A stretch of 64,000 nucleotides of DNA, from positions 1-64,000 of the forward strand of contig NZ_PYVW01000019.1 in the NCBI RefSeq assembly GCF_003056355.1. Direction: 5' to 3'. Position numbers and translations under genes: made by a program. This stretch comes from Devosia naphthalenivorans (GTDB lineage: Bacteria > Pseudomonadota > Alphaproteobacteria > Rhizobiales > Devosiaceae). The notes under the pieces are model-generated. The model did not search any database. It saw only the letters and a program-made list of their open reading frames with translations, and had not been told where the DNA came from. Below, piece by piece: positions 2,804 to 51,880 of this stretch; the stretch's first letter is position 1; each line of letters begins with the position of its first letter.

Positions 2804-4009
2804 TCAGGAGCCCGTCAGTTGTTCGGGATTGCTGGTGACAAGCATTGGATCGGCGACGATAACGCGGTTGCGGCCCGATTTCTTCGCCTCATAGAGCGCC
2901 TGATCTGCCCGGCGCAATGTGTCGGACAGATCGTCATGGGGGAGCAATTGCACCACCCCGAAACTGGCGCTGAGCGCGCTTATGCCCAATTGCGGGCCAA
3001 TCCCTGAAAAAGCCACGCGCACGCCTTCGGCATAAAGCCGGGCAGTGGCGAGATTTGCACCGGGCAGGAGAACGGCGAACTCTTCGCCGCCCTGGCGGGC
3101 GACAACCATGCGTGGTTCGGCATTATCCGTCAGCAGGCGTGCAAAGGCGGTGATCACCGTGTCACCCCAGGCGTGGCCCAGCGTATCATTGATGTGCTTG
3201 AAATGGTCGAGATCGGCCACGACGAGCGCGCTGGGCAGGCTAGCCTTGCGGGCGAGCACCAGGGCGCGTTCGGTGTGGTTCTCGAAGCCGCGCCGGTTCC
3301 AGAGGCCGGATAGCTTGTCGGTCTCGGAGCGCAGGGTGATGGCGGCCATCTCGTCGCGCACGATGATCAGCAGCATCAGCACGCCAGTGGCGATGAGCAG
3401 AAATGCGGTCAGCGTTTGCGAATAGGCGCCATAAAGGCTGTGCAGGTAATCCGCCGTGCCGGGATCGCCCATGCTTAGGGCGAGGAACGGCTTGGCGACG
3501 AATTGCAGACCGCTCACCAGCAGGAATACCAGCAGGGTGAGATCAAGCGGCTGGCGGCGATGCGAGCGCCAGACGGTGAGGGCGCCCAGGACATGGGCGG
3601 CGAAATAAGGGAGCTGGTAGGCCATGGCGCGCCAGAACGAGGCGCTGGAGGCCTGGTCCATCAGCGCGGCATTGAGCCCGACCGAGGCGATCGCAAGCAG
3701 GGCCAGCGCATTCCAGAGCACCGGGGTGCCGTAGTGGCGGGCAAGGCCGATGACGGAGACCAGAAAGGCGCTGAGCGCCACCGTAAAGACGGTCAGGTTG
3801 AGCAGCGCGGGGTCCTGCATGGTGGGCAGGATGAATTCCAGGGCGGCATTGGCCATGCCGATCGAATAGGCGATGGCCAGCCAGCGCGCGCCGATGGCGC
3901 TGCGGTTGCGCCAGGCCACCGTGCCGAAGGCTGCGGTAAACAGCCCCGCGACGAAGATATTGATGGCGAGAACGAAGCCAGCAGCGCTCACAGTGAGGGA
4001 CTCGGACAA
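2804..4009 (-). CDS. Membrane-bound diguanylate cyclase (GGDEF domain)
   Basis: A 401-residue protein. The N-terminal half (about residues 8-215) has roughly seven hydrophobic segments forming an integral-membrane sensory module. The C-terminal half is a GGDEF domain: LSGLWNRRGFE, the metal and substrate segment DLDHFKHINDTLGHAWGD, and the signature RQGGEEF. The GGEEF form is catalytically competent, so it should make cyclic di-GMP from two GTP. The upstream inhibitory I-site (RxxD five residues before the signature) is not present; the corresponding residues read EPRM. Product inhibition at that site is therefore unlikely. No EAL domain is present. Confidence 0.93.
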   Translation of the reverse strand: MSESLTVSAAGFVLAINIFVAGLFTAAFGTVAWRNRSAIGARWLAIAYSIGMANAALEFILPTMQDPALLNLTVFTVALSAFLVSVIGLARHYGTPVLWNALALLAIASVGLNAALMDQASSASFWRAMAYQLPYFAAHVLGALTVWRSHRRQPLDLTLLVFLLVSGLQFVAKPFLALSMGDPGTADYLHSLYGAYSQTLTAFLLIATGVLMLLIIVRDEMAAITLRSETDKLSGLWNRRGFENHTERALVLARKASLPSALVVADLDHFKHINDTLGHAWGDTVITAFARLLTDNAEPRMVVARQGGEEFAVLLPGANLATARLYAEGVRVAFSGIGPQLGISALSASFGVVQLLPHDDLSDTLRRADQALYEAKKSGRNRVIVADPMLVTSNPEQLTGS

Positions 4010-43446: not shown

Positions 43447-44332
43447 TCAGGATAGTTTGTATCGGGGGCGTCGGCTCGGTTCACCCGTTATCGCCTTGAG
43501 TGTCGAGGCAACGCCAGCGGCGGCGATGGCGCGCTTGATGTTTTATGCCAGGATAGTCAGGCGGCTTCGGTGGCGACGTTCTCGAGGCCGCGCGTTCGGA
43601 AGTGGGTAGCGCCCATCCACCCTTTTATCGTGCCAAGGACGTGCTCGACCGTACAGCGGCGGACCGCCATTGCCTCGGGCATCGCGTCAAAGCGGCGCTC
43701 CATCTGGTCGAGCACTGCCTCATGCTCCCATCGTCGGATGCGCTTCTCCTTGCCGGCGGTGCACAGATGACGCGATGAGCAGGCGCCACAAGCCTTCTGA
43801 TTGAAGTGGGCTCCGATGAGCTTGCCGCCCTCCACTCTGGCAAAGCGCTTCTGCAGCTGCTCGCCGGCTGGGCACCGATAGGTGTCGGTCTCGCGCTCAT
43901 GGACGAACATGGCTTTGCCCCAAAAGCCACGGGCCACGGCCGGTGACGTATTGGGCTTAGGCACCATCGGGATGATGCCCGCTTCGGCGCAGGAGCGGAT
44001 TTGTTCGCCCTCATAGTATCCACGATCGGCAAGGGCAATCATCCCTGAGCCACCGATCTCGGTCTGCGCGGCCTTGGCCATCTCCAGCAGGTGCGACCGA
44101 TCATGGCCTCGGTTCGTCACCGCGTTGGCGACGACAATATGGTGCTTGGTATCGACCGCTGCCTGCATATTGTAGCCGACGACACCACGATGATCGCTTC
44201 CGGTCGCCATGGCCCGCGCGTCTGGATCGGTAAGCGAGATCTGCTCATCGGGCGCAGCTTGCAGCTGTCGGCCAATCTCCTCGAGTTCGCCCAAACGCCC
44301 GCGCAACGAGGCCAATCGCTCCGTTAGGTGCG
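43447..44332 (-). mobile_element. Truncated and frameshifted IS1182-type transposase
   Basis: Minus-strand DDE transposase remnant: DHRGVVGYNMQAAVDTKHHI, ALADRGYYEGEQI, CGACSSRHLC and FRTRGLENVATEAA are typical of IS1182 elements. The N-terminus is missing. At the C-terminus the frame stops at 43557, but another frame continues with ILA-stop-NIKRAIAAAGVAST and PRYKLS to a stop at 43447, showing a frameshift and a nonsense change. GAGTTCTCACACAGCCTCGG (minus strand, near 43413-43432) may be its outer end. Confidence 0.85.
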
Positions 44333-44813
44333 TCACCGGGAACATGCGCCGGCCGTCTGGAACCGGCCCATGTCTGAGCGACATGATGATGCGTCCGTTT
44401 TCGCGCAGGAGCGCGCAAACCCGCCCCATACCACGCCTTCGCTCTCCTTCGTCGAGGTGCATCCAAACAGCTGAAAGCAGGACCAGATCGAAGGTTCCCG
44501 CGCGAGGCATAAGTGTTCCAAGACTGGGCAGCGCGTTGGTGACCCACTCGATACTCTGGGATGGATGAAGTTGCCGACCTGACTCGCGTAGCGCAGCGAC
44601 CGGCTCAACAGCCGCAACCTTGTGACCCCGAGCAGCAAGGCCAGCAGCATCCACCCCTATGCCTGCGCCAATATCGATGATCAGCGAAGGACGCTGCGGA
44701 AAGAGCTGCAGCACCTGCTTGGGTCGATCGGTGAAAGACAATTGCTGCCAGCTCTCGACAAGCTCAACCGCATGCTCGCCATAGCCTTCTGTCCCAGCCA
44801 CTTCAGCGTTCAT
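44333..44813 (-). pseudogene. 5' part of a SAM-dependent methyltransferase, fused to the transposase remnant
   Basis: From the ATG at 44813 (MNAEVAGTEGYGEHAVELVE) about 160 residues form the class I methyltransferase core: SLIIDIGAGIGVDAAGLAAR is the SAM-binding loop, FDLVLLSAVWMHLDEGERR follows, and IIMSLRHGPVPDGRRMFPV is where it ends. The reading frame then passes without a stop into the transposase fragment (next residues THLTERLASLRG), giving a chimeric 418-residue product ending at 43557. The natural C-terminus is lost, so function is doubtful. Confidence 0.8.
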
Positions 44814-44973
44814 CTGGCAGCCTCGAAGGTTAAACCAACCGCATGCACTATGCTGGACCTGCTCATAGCCCAACCTAACTCGCACGTCTGCTTCCAGGAA
44901 GTCGGCGAAGCTCTCTTCCCGGCCAGTATGGGGCGCAAAGTGACTGCATAGACAGGGTGATACGGGATAATAG

Positions 44974-45582
44974 CTATCCAATGCGCCGATTTAGCAGAGG
45001 CCTGTTCTCCGTTTTCGGATCTGCCATGATTTGCCGATCTTTGCTGAACTTCTCGCAAGCTCGCTTCAAGCGCCGCTTTTGCTCAATTCTGTGATTAAAC
45101 TGAATGTTCGGGAAAACTTGTCGATAGGGACCTTTGTCCACCTCAGGGGCAAGCTTGTCCTCGTTGATCGCGAAGTACCAGACCTGCAGTACTTGCGCTT
45201 CAACCGGCAGCGTGCCGGTTAATGCCTGGTAGTCATGCCACCCTTCCCAAATGACTGTATCGTTTTGCACATCACTGAAGTCAGCGAGGAGCTCCGCATC
45301 TTCGCGAACAGTCTTTTTATCTTGCTCATAGAAGTGCTTCATCGCGTTCCAGTACTGGTTACGCAGGCGAACGACTTTCCCAAGCTTCATCTCTGGGTTG
45401 AGCTTCAACACAAGCGCTGAGAGCACCTCGACATTCCTATCTTGGCCGACGCCTTCTAGAAGCTCGCAGGCTCCACATGCCAGGGCGTGAACGGATATTG
45501 GATCCCTGTCTCGGAGAAACATGTCAGTAGCGGCGCCGAGCTGCGCTCTGGCAATGTCAGTCTTTACCTGGTGAATATTCAT
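44974..45582 (-). CDS. Hypothetical protein with HEPN-like features
   Basis: A 202-residue soluble protein starting MNIHQVKTDIARAQLGAATD. The segment FLRDRDPISVHALACGACEL, then LRNQYWNAMKHFYEQDKK (an R-N-x-x-x-N-x-x-K-H arrangement) and ALTGTLPVEAQVLQVWYFAI, is like a family of proteobacterial orphans that I recall as HEPN-like; the R-x-x-x-N/K-H spacing is only loosely the HEPN RNase motif. The function is not known. It stands alone in the island, next to the truncated methyltransferase. Confidence 0.65.
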   Translation of the reverse strand: MNIHQVKTDIARAQLGAATDMFLRDRDPISVHALACGACELLEGVGQDRNVEVLSALVLKLNPEMKLGKVVRLRNQYWNAMKHFYEQDKKTVREDAELLADFSDVQNDTVIWEGWHDYQALTGTLPVEAQVLQVWYFAINEDKLAPEVDKGPYRQVFPNIQFNHRIEQKRRLKRACEKFSKDRQIMADPKTENRPLLNRRIG

Positions 45583-45606: not shown

Positions 45607-46017
45607 ACCTTAGCTCTCAAAGGACACCGGCCGGAAGCCGGACCCGCTGCCTCGGCGCTAACCTCGCTGGCGTCGGGTGACGGGCAGCTTTCAGGAGTTC
45701 TCAGGAGAGCTTCAAATGGCTGAAAAGGGGCGCGTTGCTGACCGGCGGGAAGCGCCCCATCTTTGCCGTTCAGGCTGTATGCTAGCTACCGAAAAGCGGA
45801 CCTGACACCGTCTGAGGCTTTTGGAAGCACACCCGATTGACTAATCCTGAGCGAGCCGACATCCTCGCTGTCGACGTGGCCTGCGCCCAACCTCTCAGAC
45901 CTTCCCCAGCAAGGTCTGAACGGAGGCAAAGGGACTGCTGTCTCGGGTCGTTATCTTGGTCCGATCGTCTCGGGCGAGTTGCTAGGGAGCTGCGTTCGAG
46001 ACGTGAAAGGCCCTGTC
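45607..46017. other. Island stretch without a recognisable gene
   Basis: Short frames only, none with a ribosome site or family motif. CTGACCGGCGGGAAGCGCCC (about 45740) resembles the proteobacterial intergenic repeats of decayed DNA. I see no gene here. Confidence 0.4.
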
Positions 46018-46215
46018 ATGAACCAGAATGGCAACCTCAAGCGCTGTGTCCGAGCCCGCGCAGCAAAAACAGGAGAGTCTTACGCGGCAGCGCTACGGCA
46101 TCTCCGCCGATCGACGGATACAACCCTGGTTCGTTCAATGCGCATCGCTGTTGCGCAAACATCCTTGTTCAATGACCCTCGCGACTTCACCTCGCTACAG
46201 GTGAGCGGTGCGGAG
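46018..46215 (+). pseudogene. Left part of a split carbon-nitrogen hydrolase (nitrilase) gene
   Basis: From the ATG at 46018 (MNQNGNLKRCVRARAAKTGE), followed at 46138 by MRIAVAQTSLFNDPRDFTSL and QVSGAE. This is the N-terminus of a nitrilase-superfamily protein (MRIAVAQT, then a DP(R/T)D segment and SGxEIRRLM). After GAG at 46213-46215 the similarity stops; the frame ends at 46260 with unrelated residues. The exact continuation, EIRRLM, is found at 50184. Confidence 0.75.
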
Positions 46216-46403
46216 ACGCTGTGGCGCGAGGGCCTGTTTGGAGCAGTGCTGTACGGCTAATTCGCCGGCCCGTCCTGCGGTATTGGAGGCGGCTTGGTGT
46301 GGAGCGCCCGCGTTTGGCGAAACACATTCGTGATGTCGCCGATACTCAACTGCACCTATATACGTCCGGCAACGATTGGTGATTAAGCTTGCGCGGTATG
46401 CAT

Positions 46404-46420
46404 AACCCGGTATACGGGTC
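46404..46420. promoter_or_regulatory. Imperfect palindrome upstream of the dGTPase genes
   Basis: ACCCG-GTATA-CGGGT with a GTATAC centre, about 125 bp before the first gene of the cassette. It could be an operator for the small winged-helix-like protein. Confidence 0.3.
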
Positions 46421-46545
46421 GCGAATTAGCGGGAAGCTACTTGCGCGAAACGCGCGAACGAACCAATGTACGGTGCGCACGTTGTCCCGGTCCGTTTGCG
46501 GTTTCGTAACGGCCGTCCGTCATAATGCAGTTGAGGTGATCGATC

Positions 46546-46764
46546 ATGGCTTATTCGGAAGTTCCTTCTGACGACGAAGTGGTTGGTGTACTGCGTAAGA
46601 TGGGCGTTGGTATTTCTGCACGCGCGCTGTGTGATGCGCTTGTGCAGGCTGGCCATCCACGGCCTGACAGTCAACTTGCCATTCAACGCGCTACAGAGCG
46701 CGGCCGAATTGTAGTGGCCAAAGACTGGACCCTTACCGCATCTAACGACATGGTCGCAGCCTGA
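46546..46764 (+). CDS. Small winged-helix-like protein preceding the dGTPase
   Basis: A 72-residue product, MAYSEVPSDDEVVGVLRKMG onward, with GAGGTGA six bases before the ATG. Predicted order of helices ISARALCDALVQAG and PDSQLAIQRATERG followed by RIVVAKDWTLTA suggests a small helix-turn-helix with a wing. No named family is recognised. Its TGA (46762-46764) overlaps the presumed first codon of the dGTPase, so the two are translationally coupled; a regulator or partner of the enzyme is a fair inference. Confidence 0.7.
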   Translation: MAYSEVPSDDEVVGVLRKMGVGISARALCDALVQAGHPRPDSQLAIQRATERGRIVVAKDWTLTASNDMVAA

Positions 46765-48080
46765 TTCCAGCGTGGTCTCCGGAGGATCGTGAGCACCGTC
46801 GGCATGAGCTGGCGGCTGTAAGCCCACGTCCAATTGGCGATGAGCAGCGGGCGCAGTTTGAGCGGGATCGCGATCGGCTTCTCTACTCATCTGCATTCCA
46901 TCGACTAGCTGGAATAACTCAGATTGTGCGTGCTGGCGAAGCTGGGGTTTTCCATACTCGTCAGCAGCACACCATCAAGGTGGCACAAGTTGGCCGCCGT
47001 CTCGCCCAGAAGCTGCTCAAGGAGCAACCAGAGTCAGCTAAGCACCGAGGCCTAGACCCGGAAGTTGTCGAGGCAGCCTGTTTGCTGCACGATTTGGGCC
47101 ATCCACCGTTCGGGCATGTGGGCGAGTCTGTTCTGGATGCTCTTGTGAAGCCATCCGATGCTGATGGCTTCGAAGGTAATGCTCAGTCCTTCCGAATTGT
47201 GACCAAACTGGCCATCAGGTTTCCTGAACATGACGGCATTGACCTTACTAGGGCAACCTTGGCCGCAAGCCTTAAGTATCCCTGGTTTAGGGCAGGTGAG
47301 GGGAAGGCTTCCAAAAAGTGGTCCGCCTATCGAGCTGAAACAAAAGATTTTGAGTTTGCTCGCGAGTTTCACCAGCACACTGAAAAGACGCTCGAAGCAG
47401 AGCTTATGGACTGGGCCGACGACGTGGCCTACTCGGTCCACGATCTGGAAGATTTCCACCGCTGCAACGCCTTACCTTGGCAGCGCGTCTTTCAGGAAGA
47501 CCAGAAGATCATTGATCATGCCAGTGGTGGGGTAGGGCAGTATGATCCTAAGCGGCAACGCTTAACCGCGGCATATCTTCGTCTTAAAGAGTTCCTTGGG
47601 GGCACCTACTCCGTACTCTTAGAGACCCAGTACGAAGGCACACGTGAGCAACGCGAACAGCTGCGCCGCATGACCTCTCAACTCATCGGCAAGTACATGG
47701 GCGCTATCCGCATCAATGATGACCTCACATCCAATCGTGCGGTAGAGTTTGACCAAGACAAGGTCGATGAAGTTCTGATCCTCAAGCAGATCACTCGAGA
47801 CTATATCATTGGCAGCCCGACCCTTGCCGCTCAACAGCACGGGCAGAAAAAGATAGTCACCGATCTGTTCGGTGCGCTAAAAGACGAGCTGGACGCAGGC
47901 AAGGAATATCCAGCGTTTCTGCCTCACCGACTCCGCTATTTGCGAAAGATAGCAGAGAATAGCCCAGCTAGGTTCGTGGCCGACTGTATCGCTAGCCTGT
48001 CTGAGTCCGAAGCGGTTGCGCTACATTCCCGGTTGATGGGTGTAGGCACTGGATCCGTGTTAGACCCGATAGTGCGATAG
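46764..48080 (+). CDS. dgt: dGTPase-like dNTP triphosphohydrolase with non-canonical start
   Basis: An HD-domain enzyme that cuts triphosphate from dNTPs. The conserved N-terminus reads AWSPEDREHRRHELAAVSPR, then DEQRAQFERDRDRLLYSSAF and HRLAGITQIVRAGE. HD ligands: HTRQQHTIKVAQ, ACLLHDLGHPPFGH and LMDWADDVAYSVHDLEDFH. The conserved part starts in frame at 46764, but no ATG, GTG or TTG lies between the upstream in-frame stop (46743-46745) and GTG at 46926, which would remove 54 conserved residues. ATT at 46764, overlapping the previous TGA, or CTG at 46761 must therefore start it. Such enzymes can defend against phage by dNTP depletion. Confidence 0.88.
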   Translation: MPAWSPEDREHRRHELAAVSPRPIGDEQRAQFERDRDRLLYSSAFHRLAGITQIVRAGEAGVFHTRQQHTIKVAQVGRRLAQKLLKEQPESAKHRGLDPEVVEAACLLHDLGHPPFGHVGESVLDALVKPSDADGFEGNAQSFRIVTKLAIRFPEHDGIDLTRATLAASLKYPWFRAGEGKASKKWSAYRAETKDFEFAREFHQHTEKTLEAELMDWADDVAYSVHDLEDFHRCNALPWQRVFQEDQKIIDHASGGVGQYDPKRQRLTAAYLRLKEFLGGTYSVLLETQYEGTREQREQLRRMTSQLIGKYMGAIRINDDLTSNRAVEFDQDKVDEVLILKQITRDYIIGSPTLAAQQHGQKKIVTDLFGALKDELDAGKEYPAFLPHRLRYLRKIAENSPARFVADCIASLSESEAVALHSRLMGVGTGSVLDPIVR

Positions 48081-48106
48081 GGTGAATAGACATAGGACCG
48101 GCGTGA

Positions 48107-48682
48107 TCAGTCGCGCTTGAAAATTCTCGCCAGCAGCCCCTTCTTCTGAGCCGCTTCCCTCACCCGCTCTTTGTGGACAAGTTCTTGTATGAAGTCGATG
48201 TTCAGTTGTATTCCGATCGCGCAGGCCTCCTTCTGACAGTCAGGTGGAGGAAGCTTTGACAGGAAAGCGCTTGTTGCGATCTCTCCATCAAGGCGGCGAC
48301 AACCATCGCACTCCAGCGTAAACATGCCGTCTATTTTGAAACGGTCTCGGCCTGACGTTAATCCCGACCGAACACTCCGCTCTCGGAAGTAGGAGAACTG
48401 CGCGTCCAGTAAGGTCGCCTCTAGCCCCTTGAGCGGGGCTGTTCGGCCTTTCTCCGTAAGAGCATCGATCGCCTCAACGGTCATATCGGCGTTAGCCCTA
48501 ATTCCCAGATCTCGTTTTGACTGCGCAGACAGTTGGATGCCGATTTGGCGAAATAGCCTGCCAATCTTATGGGGATGATGGCCTTCATTCTCTTCCATCA
48601 AGATCGCCAAGGCGGGCGCATATTCGGGCTTGATGTACCCGAGGCGGGATATCGCCTTCTCGATGTGCGGCAGGTAGCGCAT
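48107..48682 (-). CDS. Hypothetical protein with two cysteine pairs
   Basis: A 191-residue soluble protein from the ATG at 48682 (MRYLPHIEKAISRLGYIKPE), with GGAAG five bases upstream. An N-terminal helical half resembles a helix-turn-helix region (KIGRLFRQIGIQLSAQSKRD). The C-terminal half has CDGC (Cys125, Cys128) and CQKEAC (Cys149, Cys154), a likely zinc site, and ends in a basic helix. No family is recognised. It is convergent with dgt, 26 nt apart, and belongs to the cassette. Confidence 0.65.
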   Translation of the reverse strand: MRYLPHIEKAISRLGYIKPEYAPALAILMEENEGHHPHKIGRLFRQIGIQLSAQSKRDLGIRANADMTVEAIDALTEKGRTAPLKGLEATLLDAQFSYFRERSVRSGLTSGRDRFKIDGMFTLECDGCRRLDGEIATSAFLSKLPPPDCQKEACAIGIQLNIDFIQELVHKERVREAAQKKGLLARIFKRD

Positions 48683-48915
48683 GCCCGCTTCCAATATCTT
48701 GCTCGCGATACACTCGCCGACAGCGACATGCCCGGCAAGTCCCCGCTTTCATGAATCGGCATCAGCGATGCCAGAAGTAGGCAGGATCGGCCCGGACACC
48801 GCATTCCAATTCCAGGAGGCAAATGAAGCGGCAACAAGTCCGTGCAATCCAACCGACCGGTCGAGCCGCACCCATGATCAATCACCAGTTCGTTGCGACG
48901 GAATCGAACACCCGG

Positions 48916-49677
48916 TCAATCACCCCAACGGATGATTCCGCCCACGTCCCGATACAGGTGCACGTTCGTACCCAGGTCGTAGTAGCTGAGATATCGGCCG
49001 TACTTGCTTGTCTCTTCATGCCGAACTTTGAAAGCGTCTTGGTAAATGAGCGTTATGTGGATTTCGAGTTCGAACGTCCCCCGGTCATCGGATACCTCGG
49101 CTGCAAGATAGGGGTCGAACTCAGCGAAGGCTTCTTTCACAACTCCCGCAGCTATGTCGGACCGGGACTTAGTGCTTGAAGCTTCTCGCGCCGTGTCACC
49201 ATCAATAGCTTTGGTGAGCAACGTCACCCTGAAGGCGACGTTGTACGCTGGGGAAACCCCGGAATTTTTAACCTTATAGTCTATCCTCAGCGTTCCACCC
49301 TTGATGGATGCGCTTGCAAACTCCACCAATAGAAATGGCCTGACCGCGATCTCACTGGCTCGAGCCCCCTGAAGGGCCGCCAGCGCTCCGCTCCTGGTTT
49401 CCTGCAGGGTTCTCGCAAGCAGAACCAGGCCGAAGGCCCCCACCATTGTGGATACGATCGCCACAAAGGCCATGAACCAAGCAGCATCACTCATGCTGCG
49501 CTGTGTGGCCAAATCGAGGTATTCAATGGAGTATGGACCAAGGATGGGCAGGTGCTCTGCGCGAGGGATACCCACAAGGGCCGTGGAAAGCAGTAGGCCG
49601 CCTATCATGCCCGCCCCGACAAGCATGAGCGACCAGGCGCCAGCATTCGCCAGCCTGCGTATACGCCACCACTTCAT
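48916..49677 (-). CDS. Hypothetical two-helix membrane protein
   Basis: A 253-residue protein from the ATG at 49677, with AGGGG six bases upstream. Two transmembrane helices at about residues 14-37 (WSLMLVGAGMIGGLLLSTAL) and 67-88 (FMAFVAIVSTMVGAFGLVLL), a coiled linker, then a C-terminal soluble beta-rich domain (about 112-253) with IKGGTLRIDYKVKNSGVSPA, like the CARDB/immunoglobulin-type folds. The function is unknown. This architecture of membrane anchor plus soluble domain is common in defence accessory proteins, but that is only analogy. Confidence 0.68.
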   Translation of the reverse strand: MKWWRIRRLANAGAWSLMLVGAGMIGGLLLSTALVGIPRAEHLPILGPYSIEYLDLATQRSMSDAAWFMAFVAIVSTMVGAFGLVLLARTLQETRSGALAALQGARASEIAVRPFLLVEFASASIKGGTLRIDYKVKNSGVSPAYNVAFRVTLLTKAIDGDTAREASSTKSRSDIAAGVVKEAFAEFDPYLAAEVSDDRGTFELEIHITLIYQDAFKVRHEETSKYGRYLSYYDLGTNVHLYRDVGGIIRWGD

Positions 49678-49694
49678 GTTTTACCCCTGATTCC

Positions 49695-49874
49695 TCAGCA
49701 GCCAGTTAGTCGTTCGGCGGCTGCTGTAGTCAACAGGAGGGCCACGTGATCATCCCCAGTGTCGCAGTTGACAGCGACCAAAATGCCGTTTCCCGTAGAG
49801 CACGTGTGATGTGCATAGTCCGAGGTGCGTAGTGTGTTTAGGTCGAGGGTGAACTGGTGGGCCCGCGGCGCCAT
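49695..49874 (-). CDS. Possible small hypothetical protein
   Basis: A 59-residue frame, MAPRAHQFTLDLNTLRTSDY then AHHTCSTGNGILVAVNCDTG. Composition is protein-like but there is no ribosome site. It may be real or a decayed piece. The rest of 49678-50181 has no supported gene. Confidence 0.25.
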   Translation of the reverse strand: MAPRAHQFTLDLNTLRTSDYAHHTCSTGNGILVAVNCDTGDDHVALLLTTAAAERLTGC

Positions 49875-50181
49875 GCCGGCAGAGCGGCAACGCACCAGGC
49901 TTGCGATGACAGGCAAGACGGTGAATGGCACAGCGGTGTGGACCGAAGCCGAGGAGGCCCAGGGCACAGCGGCACCTCGATCGCGGCCGAACTAGCGGAC
50001 GGCACGACCCCCGACCAGATAGCCTGCATGGTCGGTCATTGGGGCATTGCTCCCAAGAGCAGCGATCCGCGTTTCACTTACGTTGACGTGCGCGTGCCGC
50101 TCGCTGCGAAGTTCCGCACCTAGCTAGCGGCCGAAGCTAAGCGCCACGGTATGGAATTGCCGGATCTGATGCAGAAGGTGA

Positions 50182-50520
50182 CGGAGATCCGCCGTCTCAT
50201 GACCGCAGCTCATGGAGCCGGTGTGCGACTGATCCACTTTCCCGAAGGCGCCACCTGTGCACCCAACAAGAGGATCATGTCGGGCATCGGGCCGCAGGAA
50301 ATTGGCCCTCCGACTGGAACACGTTTGTGTGGATGGCTTTGCGTCAGGGACTCCAGACCATCAGCAAACATGCGCAAACGCTGCGGCTCTGGACCGTTCT
50401 TGGCTCGGTTCATCAACTGACCCCACCACATCGCCCTCAGAACAGCCTCTAAGTCATCTCGATCGTGGAGAGTTGGTGACCCGCTATGACGAGCGGATGC
50501 TACAGTGCCAAGCTGGAACG
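50182..50520 (+). pseudogene. Right part of the split nitrilase gene, with frameshifts and a stop
   Basis: GAG at 50184 begins EIRRLMTAAHGAGVRLIHFP followed by EGATCAPNKRIMSG, which contains the catalytic glutamate region of nitrilases. Near 50310 the frame shifts: DWNTFVWMALRQGLQTISKH and LRLWTVLGSVHQLTPPHRPQ, NSL, then a TAA, VIS, then another shift to DRGELVTRYDERML near 50470. At least two frameshifts and one nonsense change make it a clear pseudogene. It continues the gene begun at 46018. Confidence 0.82.
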
Positions 50521-50994: not shown

Positions 50995-51880
50995 CTACAT
51001 AAAACTCAAACAGTCCGTCCAAGCCTGCTCAGCATGAGCTAACCAAGCGTGGACATAGTCACTTGGCCCTCCGCTGTCGAGCAAGGCGGCAGCGGTGAGC
51101 GCAGCGGGGTAACGGGCATCGCCGTAGCAAAGGTCGTCCACATCCACGATGCCTGACAGATATCCTTCCGGGGAAACAATGACGTTCTTGGTTGTCGTGT
51201 CATGAAGGAAGAGTACGGGCTCCACTACATGCAGCCTCGCGGTAAATTTGGTCAGCAGAGAGCTAACCTGGTCGACGGCTGTTGCGGAAAACAACCCGTT
51301 CACGACGATCCTTCCTCGAGAGCGCTCTACATGAGCCCGAACTACATCCGTCCAGCTCGCATGGGGGGCCTCGGCGGCCCTTGACGCATAGCCAAAACCG
51401 GCGCCACTGCTCGAGTCGAGCAGTTGCTGTCTGTGCATCCGCGACCGCTCTGGCGATATGGCGGAGCTGATCTGTCGACAGGACATATAGAACATGGCCA
51501 AGATCGGTACCTCGAAGGCGCGTCATCAACACATATGGAAAGCCTGCGTGTTCGCCATGGCCCAATACTGCGGGGAGCGGCACACCCAGGGGCTTCAATT
51601 GCGCCGACAACAACAATCCTTGCTGAAGAACGCCAGCTTGTTCGGCAAGGCCAATACGCACAGCGGCCTGGCCCGCTCCAGAAGTTACCTCATAGACGAA
51701 GAACGCGGTGCCTGTTGTGAACCGGCGCGCTGTGGCTGCCGCCAGCCGAAGGCACGTTCAGCGATTGCGCAGGTGACCTTTTCTGAAGGCAGCTCTCTAG
51801 ACAACTTGCGCTCCGCGATATGCAGTGGACTTGCCACGAGGAGAGGATGAACAGGCCCGCGACAAGCCCGGGCGATGCGG
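50995..51880 (-). pseudogene. Aminoglycoside phosphotransferase-like (APH) pseudogene
   Basis: Minus-strand pieces in different frames make one APH-family protein. IAERKLSRELPSEKVTCAIA (around 51800) shifts to AAATARRFTTGTAFFVYEVT near 51740, continues VRIGLAEQAG and FPYVLMTRLRGTDLGHVLY, and shifts again near 51440 to LLTKFTARLHVVEPVLFLHD then TTTKNVIV and GIVDVDDLCYGDARYPAALT. HDTTTKN is the H-D-x-x-x-x-N catalytic motif and DVDD replaces DFD. Two frameshifts disable it. Confidence 0.78.

Follow-up and report, generated by a model that had tools for sequence, protein, structure and literature searches.

A putative phage-derived insert with a winged-helix/dGTPase gene pair interrupts a nitrilase-family gene in Devosia naphthalenivorans

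In a 64,000-nucleotide stretch of the Devosia naphthalenivorans genome (contig NZ_PYVW01000019.1, positions 1 to 64,000; G000:C11:1-64000 in our numbering of the 4.49-Mb genome of 55 contigs), hereafter called the window, a nitrilase-family gene that starts near position 45979 is cut at 46215 and resumes at 50184, on the far side of a 3,971-bp insert. As judged from sequence comparison, the best explanation of this locus is that it is the remnant of a phage with a superinfection-defence module composed of a winged-helix protein and a deoxyguanosine triphosphate triphosphohydrolase (dGTPase), the activity of which is putative here. We assign a probability of about two in three to the reading as a whole, namely, that a phage-derived circle carrying this module was joined to the chromosome by a single crossover at the pentanucleotide CGGAG. 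The anatomy of the insertion can be read in the DNA itself, and from it we infer the route of integration.

The interruption of a nitrilase gene had been proposed in a prediction made from the DNA letters alone (the original prediction), and it was confirmed by an uninterrupted relative in another genome (G058). The open reading frame (ORF) of this relative encodes 361 amino acids (L007, 1611-2696), matches Pfam CN_hydrolase (E 4e-12) and agrees at the DNA level with window positions 45836-46091 and 50183-50501, one stretch on each side of the insert. Reading of the sequence reveals a frameshift and stops in the right piece beyond the insertion. The suggested search for the uninterrupted gene among relatives succeeded in part: relatives with 40-46% identity occur in 10 of 75 genomes of the genus (E up to 1e-30), and nine of the ten have no internal stop, so uninterrupted relatives exist; the empty site in a near strain is taken up below. 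The G+C content is 56.5% in the insert, 61.5% in the window and 59% in the flanks.

The evidence on how the insert arrived lies at its two ends. CGGAG stands at both junctions, as the original prediction had stated, and was there described as a 5-bp junction duplication around an insert of four genes. A fifth gene, referred to here as G, had been missed; it is damaged and split across the two ends of the insert. The last 228 bases encode the later middle of the G protein, ending MELPDLMQKVT, and the first bases encode its last 15 residues, ETLWREGLFGAVLYG. In two genomes of the same genus, G016 and G007, a single gene spans both stretches. In G016 copy 1, G016 copy 2 and G007 copy 1, the right-end part aligns up to residues 136 of 152, 112 of 128 and 120 of 136, respectively, and the left-end part begins at residues 138, 114 and 122; the T codon at 50181-50183 occupies the residue between the two parts, and none is lost or duplicated. 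Against each of the three C-termini, the left end was the best of 127,906 15-mers of the window. In DNA, window 49970-50187 corresponds to 1711-1494 of locus L008, and 46210-46256 to 1500-1454 of the same locus. Since the two ends are parts of one gene, a crossover sequence common to insert and target is a better reading of the five bases than a target-site duplication, and this residue-level complementarity fits a circle with a single crossover, not a transposon.

Relatives of G were found in nine of the 75 genus genomes, including the window's own (E up to 1e-5). Two copies lie downstream of a tape-measure gene in G016 (phrog_3336, E 3.9e-62), and in G007 G and a weaker second copy follow a gene matching phage transglycosylase and tail families. 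Contig C55 of the window's own genome holds a distant G preceded by a weak tape-measure match (E 0.0046); an integrase and a paralogue of the membrane protein in the insert lie nearby. These phage-like neighbours suggest that G is a phage-type gene. The two G016 copies had no PHROG match, and these copies together with the first G007 copy matched no Pfam family at E up to 1; the latter result gives no support to membership of G in the GcrA family, which a resemblance had suggested.

A route consistent with this anatomy would be that a circle, about 4 kb as now seen, arose from a phage genome, either by the phage's own recombination or by chance, and entered the nitrilase-family gene by one crossover within the shared CGGAG, which in the circle would have lain inside G. 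The circle would have brought a two-gene prophage accessory module, in which a 72-residue winged-helix protein is followed at once by the dGTPase. No plasmid source of the insert was found by megablast in 72,556 plasmid records, and scans for promoters and terminators gave no signal clearly above shuffles.

The small protein upstream of the dGTPase is predicted to fold as a winged helix (three helices and a beta wing; predicted local distance difference test score, pLDDT, 85). An earlier prediction from the one sequence was poor (pLDDT 48.8) and was not used. In all five viral loci of the close dGTPase clade, the small gene lies directly upstream of the dGTPase. The module stands beside an integrase, recognised by family match, in L102 and L100, the two integrases being similar; in L098 a 381-residue gene without a PHROG match takes a like position, and in L101 the module follows a tail module. 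Differences between the window and L098 at the first, second and third codon positions (0.328/0.219/0.688 for the small gene and 0.256/0.174/0.638 for the dGTPase) were counted as a sign of selection on both genes. A hidden Markov model (HMM) of the phage small genes, run with hmmsearch on 3,549 ORFs, gave five hits, all from the loci used to build it, which documents absence from the other loci rather than independent support. When ORFs upstream of dGTPases were compared with one another, nine upstream-upstream pairs were obtained, and the four matches of the window's small gene stand outside these. A small upstream ORF is lacking in 20 of the 41 viral loci that contain a dGTPase ORF, and several of those seen in the remaining 21 have probably arisen by chance. 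The possibility that the small gene and the dGTPase are one gene broken by a frameshift was considered unlikely because the two ORFs are 20 bases apart in L100 and 14 in L102.

By their neighbourhoods elsewhere, these two are the only ones of the four cargo genes that belong together. The comparison covered 184 loci, after leaving out seven that hold the window insert; several of them overlap, covering one place, and they are not independent, and their flanks are mostly 1.5-10 kb, so that farther neighbours are possible. The dGTPase occurs alone in 116 of these loci and with the small gene in nine, and the small gene alone in one; the cysteine-pair protein was found in five, the membrane protein in seven, the membrane protein with G in one, and G alone in 14. 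No dGTPase was present in the five loci with a cysteine-pair relative or the eight with a membrane-protein relative. The cysteine-pair protein has relatives in one plasmid record (Rhizobium phaseoli) and in two of 347 order-sample genomes besides its own, and no dGTPase adjoins any of them in the stretches examined. The membrane protein has relatives in nine of the 347 besides its own and in two viral contigs, as well as a paralogue of 34% identity (G000:C55:93191-93928) in the prophage-like region of C55 mentioned above. A four-gene system was rejected on these grounds. The original prediction had named the four genes never being found together elsewhere as an outcome that would speak against it; this is the outcome for the set of four (0 of 184 loci), and not for the small gene/dGTPase pair. 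Likewise, of the undescribed partners it proposed, one is retained, namely the small upstream protein. Among the hits listed in a search of openly accessible literature, none describes a winged-helix/dGTPase pairing. The kind of enzyme is known, and its pairing with a small winged-helix protein in prophages appears to be new.

The downstream enzyme is a dGTPase by several models. It exceeds the Pfam cut-offs for HD (46 bits) and HD_assoc (42 bits) and that of TIGR01353 (234.9 bits; cut-off 152.35), and residues 23-442 match the PADLOC dGTPase profile PDLC02374 with 302.8 bits (E 1.1e-90; PADLOC gives no cut-off). The catalytic motif of dGTPases is H...HD...D, and the corresponding H70, H110-D111 and D217 (counted from the codon at 46761) are identical in six of six aligned sequences, the window's included. 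An HD motif is also named in PMC12265719. The window enzyme retains 148 of the 152 alignment columns that do not vary among five phage relatives, and none of the four changes affects the catalytic H110, D111 or D217. The body of the gene is complete, uninterrupted by stop or frameshift over its 1,320 bp. All four predicted ORFs are present; "intact", as they had been called, is too strong for the dGTPase, which has no standard start. Its frame opens at 46746, and no ATG, GTG or TTG precedes the GTG at 46926, which already lies within the conserved region. The small gene closes with GCC TGA, and its stop is overlapped by the CTG at 46761; the same arrangement of CTG and TGA is seen at the small gene of L098 (70% identical), where a GTG follows three codons on. 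The dGTPases of L100 and L102 start with TTG and that of L099 with ATG. CTG 46761 is the likeliest start, with initiation that may be coupled to the small gene; otherwise the start would have been lost.

With regard to distribution, all 75 genus genomes have a dGTPase-like match besides the window's, the best at 126.6 bits compared with 1004.8 for the window's own copy, so the latter is not the resident dGTPase. Close forms were found in two of 385 genomes of the class sample (its own and G748; E up to 1e-45), in one of 398 of the phylum sample (its own; E up to 1e-45), in one of 214 of the order sample (its own; E up to 1e-55), and in one of 17 of the family of G748 (G748 itself; E up to 1e-50). 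A profile scan of viral contigs left 42 dGTPase loci, after two that lacked a suitable ORF had been set aside and 52 had been collapsed at 80% identity; five have 51-70% identity to the window enzyme and 37 have 26-40%. A second scan with a closer profile gave 33 loci with the same five on top, and the window dGTPase used alone retrieved no viral locus. Judged by sequence, this distribution fits a sporadic accessory gene.

Several known systems resemble the module in part. An anti-phage dGTPase was reportedly described by Tal et al. 2022. That work is cited in PMC12265719, the available portion of which states that dGTPases hydrolyse dGTP and restrict phages. The window enzyme shares with this type the HD-fold deoxynucleoside triphosphate (dNTP) triphosphohydrolase nature and the PADLOC match, and differs from it in its NCBIfam score (given below), its prophage-type setting and the winged-helix gene ahead of it; the anti-phage type is supported by the PADLOC model and not by the NCBIfam one. 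Among solved structures, the Shewanella SpdGTPase (PDB 9P8W) is the second-best relative of the window clade profile, after 7lwz. The profile scores 9p8s-9p8v, which are labelled dNTP triphosphohydrolase and which we take to be CloA, lower than 9p8w. These identifiers are printed as 8P9S-8P9V in the accessible part of PMC12265719, according to which Clover consists of the CloA dGTPase and the CloB nucleotidyltransferase, the enzyme being toxic alone and restrained by its partner. The window module is likewise a dGTPase with one partner, whereas this partner is a winged helix and not a nucleotidyltransferase. No scanned insert protein matched a nucleotidyltransferase family, so the locus does not class as Clover; a match named NTPtran lies on the dGTPase itself, where it scores 20.4 bits, the cut-off being 315. 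BstA, a prophage defence with self-immunity, is also a temperate-phage accessory gene acting on incoming phages, although it is another protein (PMC8585504, available portion). Plasmid-borne dGTPases of the haloarchaea Salinigranum, Natribaculum and Salinirubellus are 36.6-37.3% identical to the window enzyme and have an ORF of 68-81 codons directly upstream. The small haloarchaeal proteins resemble the phage set in profile-profile comparison (probability 65.8, E 5.7e-05), but they were not found by the HMM of that set, and the dGTPase of Salinirubellus is divided between two ORFs.

Two other accounts of the integration were weighed. Transposition of a four-gene defence cassette with a 5-bp target-site duplication, to which the mobile cassette of the original prediction corresponds, would explain the CGGAG at both junctions and the open cargo frames. 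Nevertheless, it is very improbable because the two ends of the insert complement each other as parts of G, no transposase match was obtained for the six scanned insert ORFs, and no terminal inverted repeat exceeded chance (the best 12-mer match was equalled in 95 of 200 shuffles, and five of the first 20 bases agree); moreover, the four genes do not recur together in the 184 loci. Of the mobile defence cassette, a mobile origin and an accessory dGTPase are retained, the four-gene unit and transposition are given up, and selection for defence is plausible. A variant closer to the proposed circle, to which we give a real but minority chance, is that a whole temperate phage integrated through its own recombinase, with an attachment site in G and CGGAG as the core, and that the prophage then lost most of its length, its two ends remaining. 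The prophage-like cargo and the integrases often found beside close relatives of the module are in keeping with it, and a later deletion would account for the missing integrase. Five bases are short for a common core, though; by eye, the flanking similarity goes no further than a gapped GGTG, and the G016 and G007 stretches show no evident attachment site where G lies.

As to function, the dGTPase might be a dead passenger, untranslated for want of a standard start codon, whose open frame reflects recent arrival. The absence of an in-frame ATG, GTG or TTG before 46926 and the stop and lost frame of G in the same insert speak for this, while the CTG overlapping the TGA is shared by L098 (which also has its GTG) and 1,320 bp have stayed free of stops and frameshifts; we regard it as somewhat unlikely. 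It is rather improbable that the enzyme serves the nucleotide balance of the phage or lysogen instead of defence. dGTPases also have housekeeping roles, a Caulobacter case among them, and every genus genome holds a dGTPase-like match besides the window's; the sporadic distribution and the prophage and plasmid settings, in contrast, fit an accessory role. Most likely, the module works in superinfection defence: the dGTPase would lower dGTP when another phage replicates, as is established for relatives, and the winged-helix protein may control the enzyme or the expression of its operon so that the lysogen is unharmed.

A number of observations weigh against the phage-circle and defence reading and keep its probability where it is. 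Neither a near strain with the empty nitrilase site nor a free circle was found, and the sole uninterrupted relative matching DNA on both sides belongs to another family of the same order. No gene for replication or integration was recognised in the 3.97-kb circle, which means that it either underwent a large deletion or was made by another agent. G carries one TAG and its frame is lost before about 49956, which suggests decay, and the genes neighbouring the insert are decayed as well. The second G copy in G007 aligns with the right part and not with the left end. The phage nature of G leans on neighbours in bacterial genomes, examined in three of the nine (G016, G007 and its own C55), and the scan of viral contigs found no relative of G. 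One viral contig has a small winged-helix homologue (L176, 2983-3186) without a dGTPase in 6 kb. The dGTPase scores 230.3 bits with the NCBIfam anti-phage model NF041026, below its cut-off of 400, and its possible full-length starts are CTG 46761 or ATT 46764, both non-standard, from which the window copy would have to be expressed. We know of no phage-defence assay for this dGTPase clade.

Table 1. Features of the interrupted gene and the insert (window coordinates)
Feature	Position	Strand	Remarks
Carbon-nitrogen hydrolase (nitrilase family), left piece	45979..46215	+	Ends SGAE; DNA match to G058/L007 gene
CGGAG, left copy	46211..46215	.	Sequence; read as shared crossover sequence
Gene G, last 15 codons and stop, ETLWREGLFGAVLYG*	46213..46260	+	Top-scoring window 15-mer against C-termini of three relatives; alignment
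Small 72-residue protein, predicted winged helix, upstream partner of dGTPase	46546..46764	+	
Accessory dGTPase (dNTP triphosphohydrolase, HD fold)	46761..48080	+	Start uncertain, CTG 46761 or ATT 46764; Pfam, TIGR01353, PADLOC
Protein with C-x2-C and C-x4-C cysteine pairs	48107..48682	-	Relatives in Rhizobium phaseoli plasmid and two genomes
253-residue protein, two-helix membrane protein per original prediction	48916..49677	-	Paralogue in own genome
Gene G, earlier part	49956..50183	+	61-63% identity to G016 relative; one internal TAG; frame lost upstream of ~49956
CGGAG, right copy	50182..50186	.	Sequence; read as shared crossover sequence
Nitrilase-family gene, right piece	50184..50501	+	Frameshifted; DNA match to L007 1895-2215

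Outside the insert, a methyltransferase domain at 43557-44981 (minus strand) continues in frame into the C-terminal part of a DDE transposase, and a partial APH-family phosphotransferase at 50995-51501 (minus strand) covers profile positions 118-233 of 239. Among other mobile dGTPases, small upstream genes of unrelated families recur in L104, L105, L136 and L138, in L070 and L112, and in L066 and L068; L071 and L132 were placed with the L070/L112 group, and a likeness among L109, L114 and L121 was noted, by eye only. The distant dGTPase of L070, on a Roseomonas plasmid, adjoins a gene annotated as abortive infection family protein. In G748 (contig C14, L062), the genes recognised in a stretch of about 2.1 kb are limited to a small ORF and the dGTPase; it is flanked by 75% identical direct repeats (1302-1392 and 3420-3510) of the 5' end of a presumably comM/yifB-like gene, as if this stretch had also integrated between the repeats.

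Tentatively, and with more doubt than confidence, many prophage and plasmid dGTPases may be two-gene, toxin-antitoxin-like modules in which an upstream protein of 50-80 residues, from one of several unrelated families, restrains the enzyme or senses infection; the window would then represent the winged-helix type, travelling in the form of a small circle. To our knowledge, Clover is the one worked-out bacterial case of how a defence dGTPase is restrained. The recurring winged-helix partner in prophages thus offers a small two-gene system for asking how dGTPases are kept harmless, and the window keeps a record, clear to an unusual degree, of what would be the entry of a phage-type circle into a chromosome through one crossover at five bases common to both.

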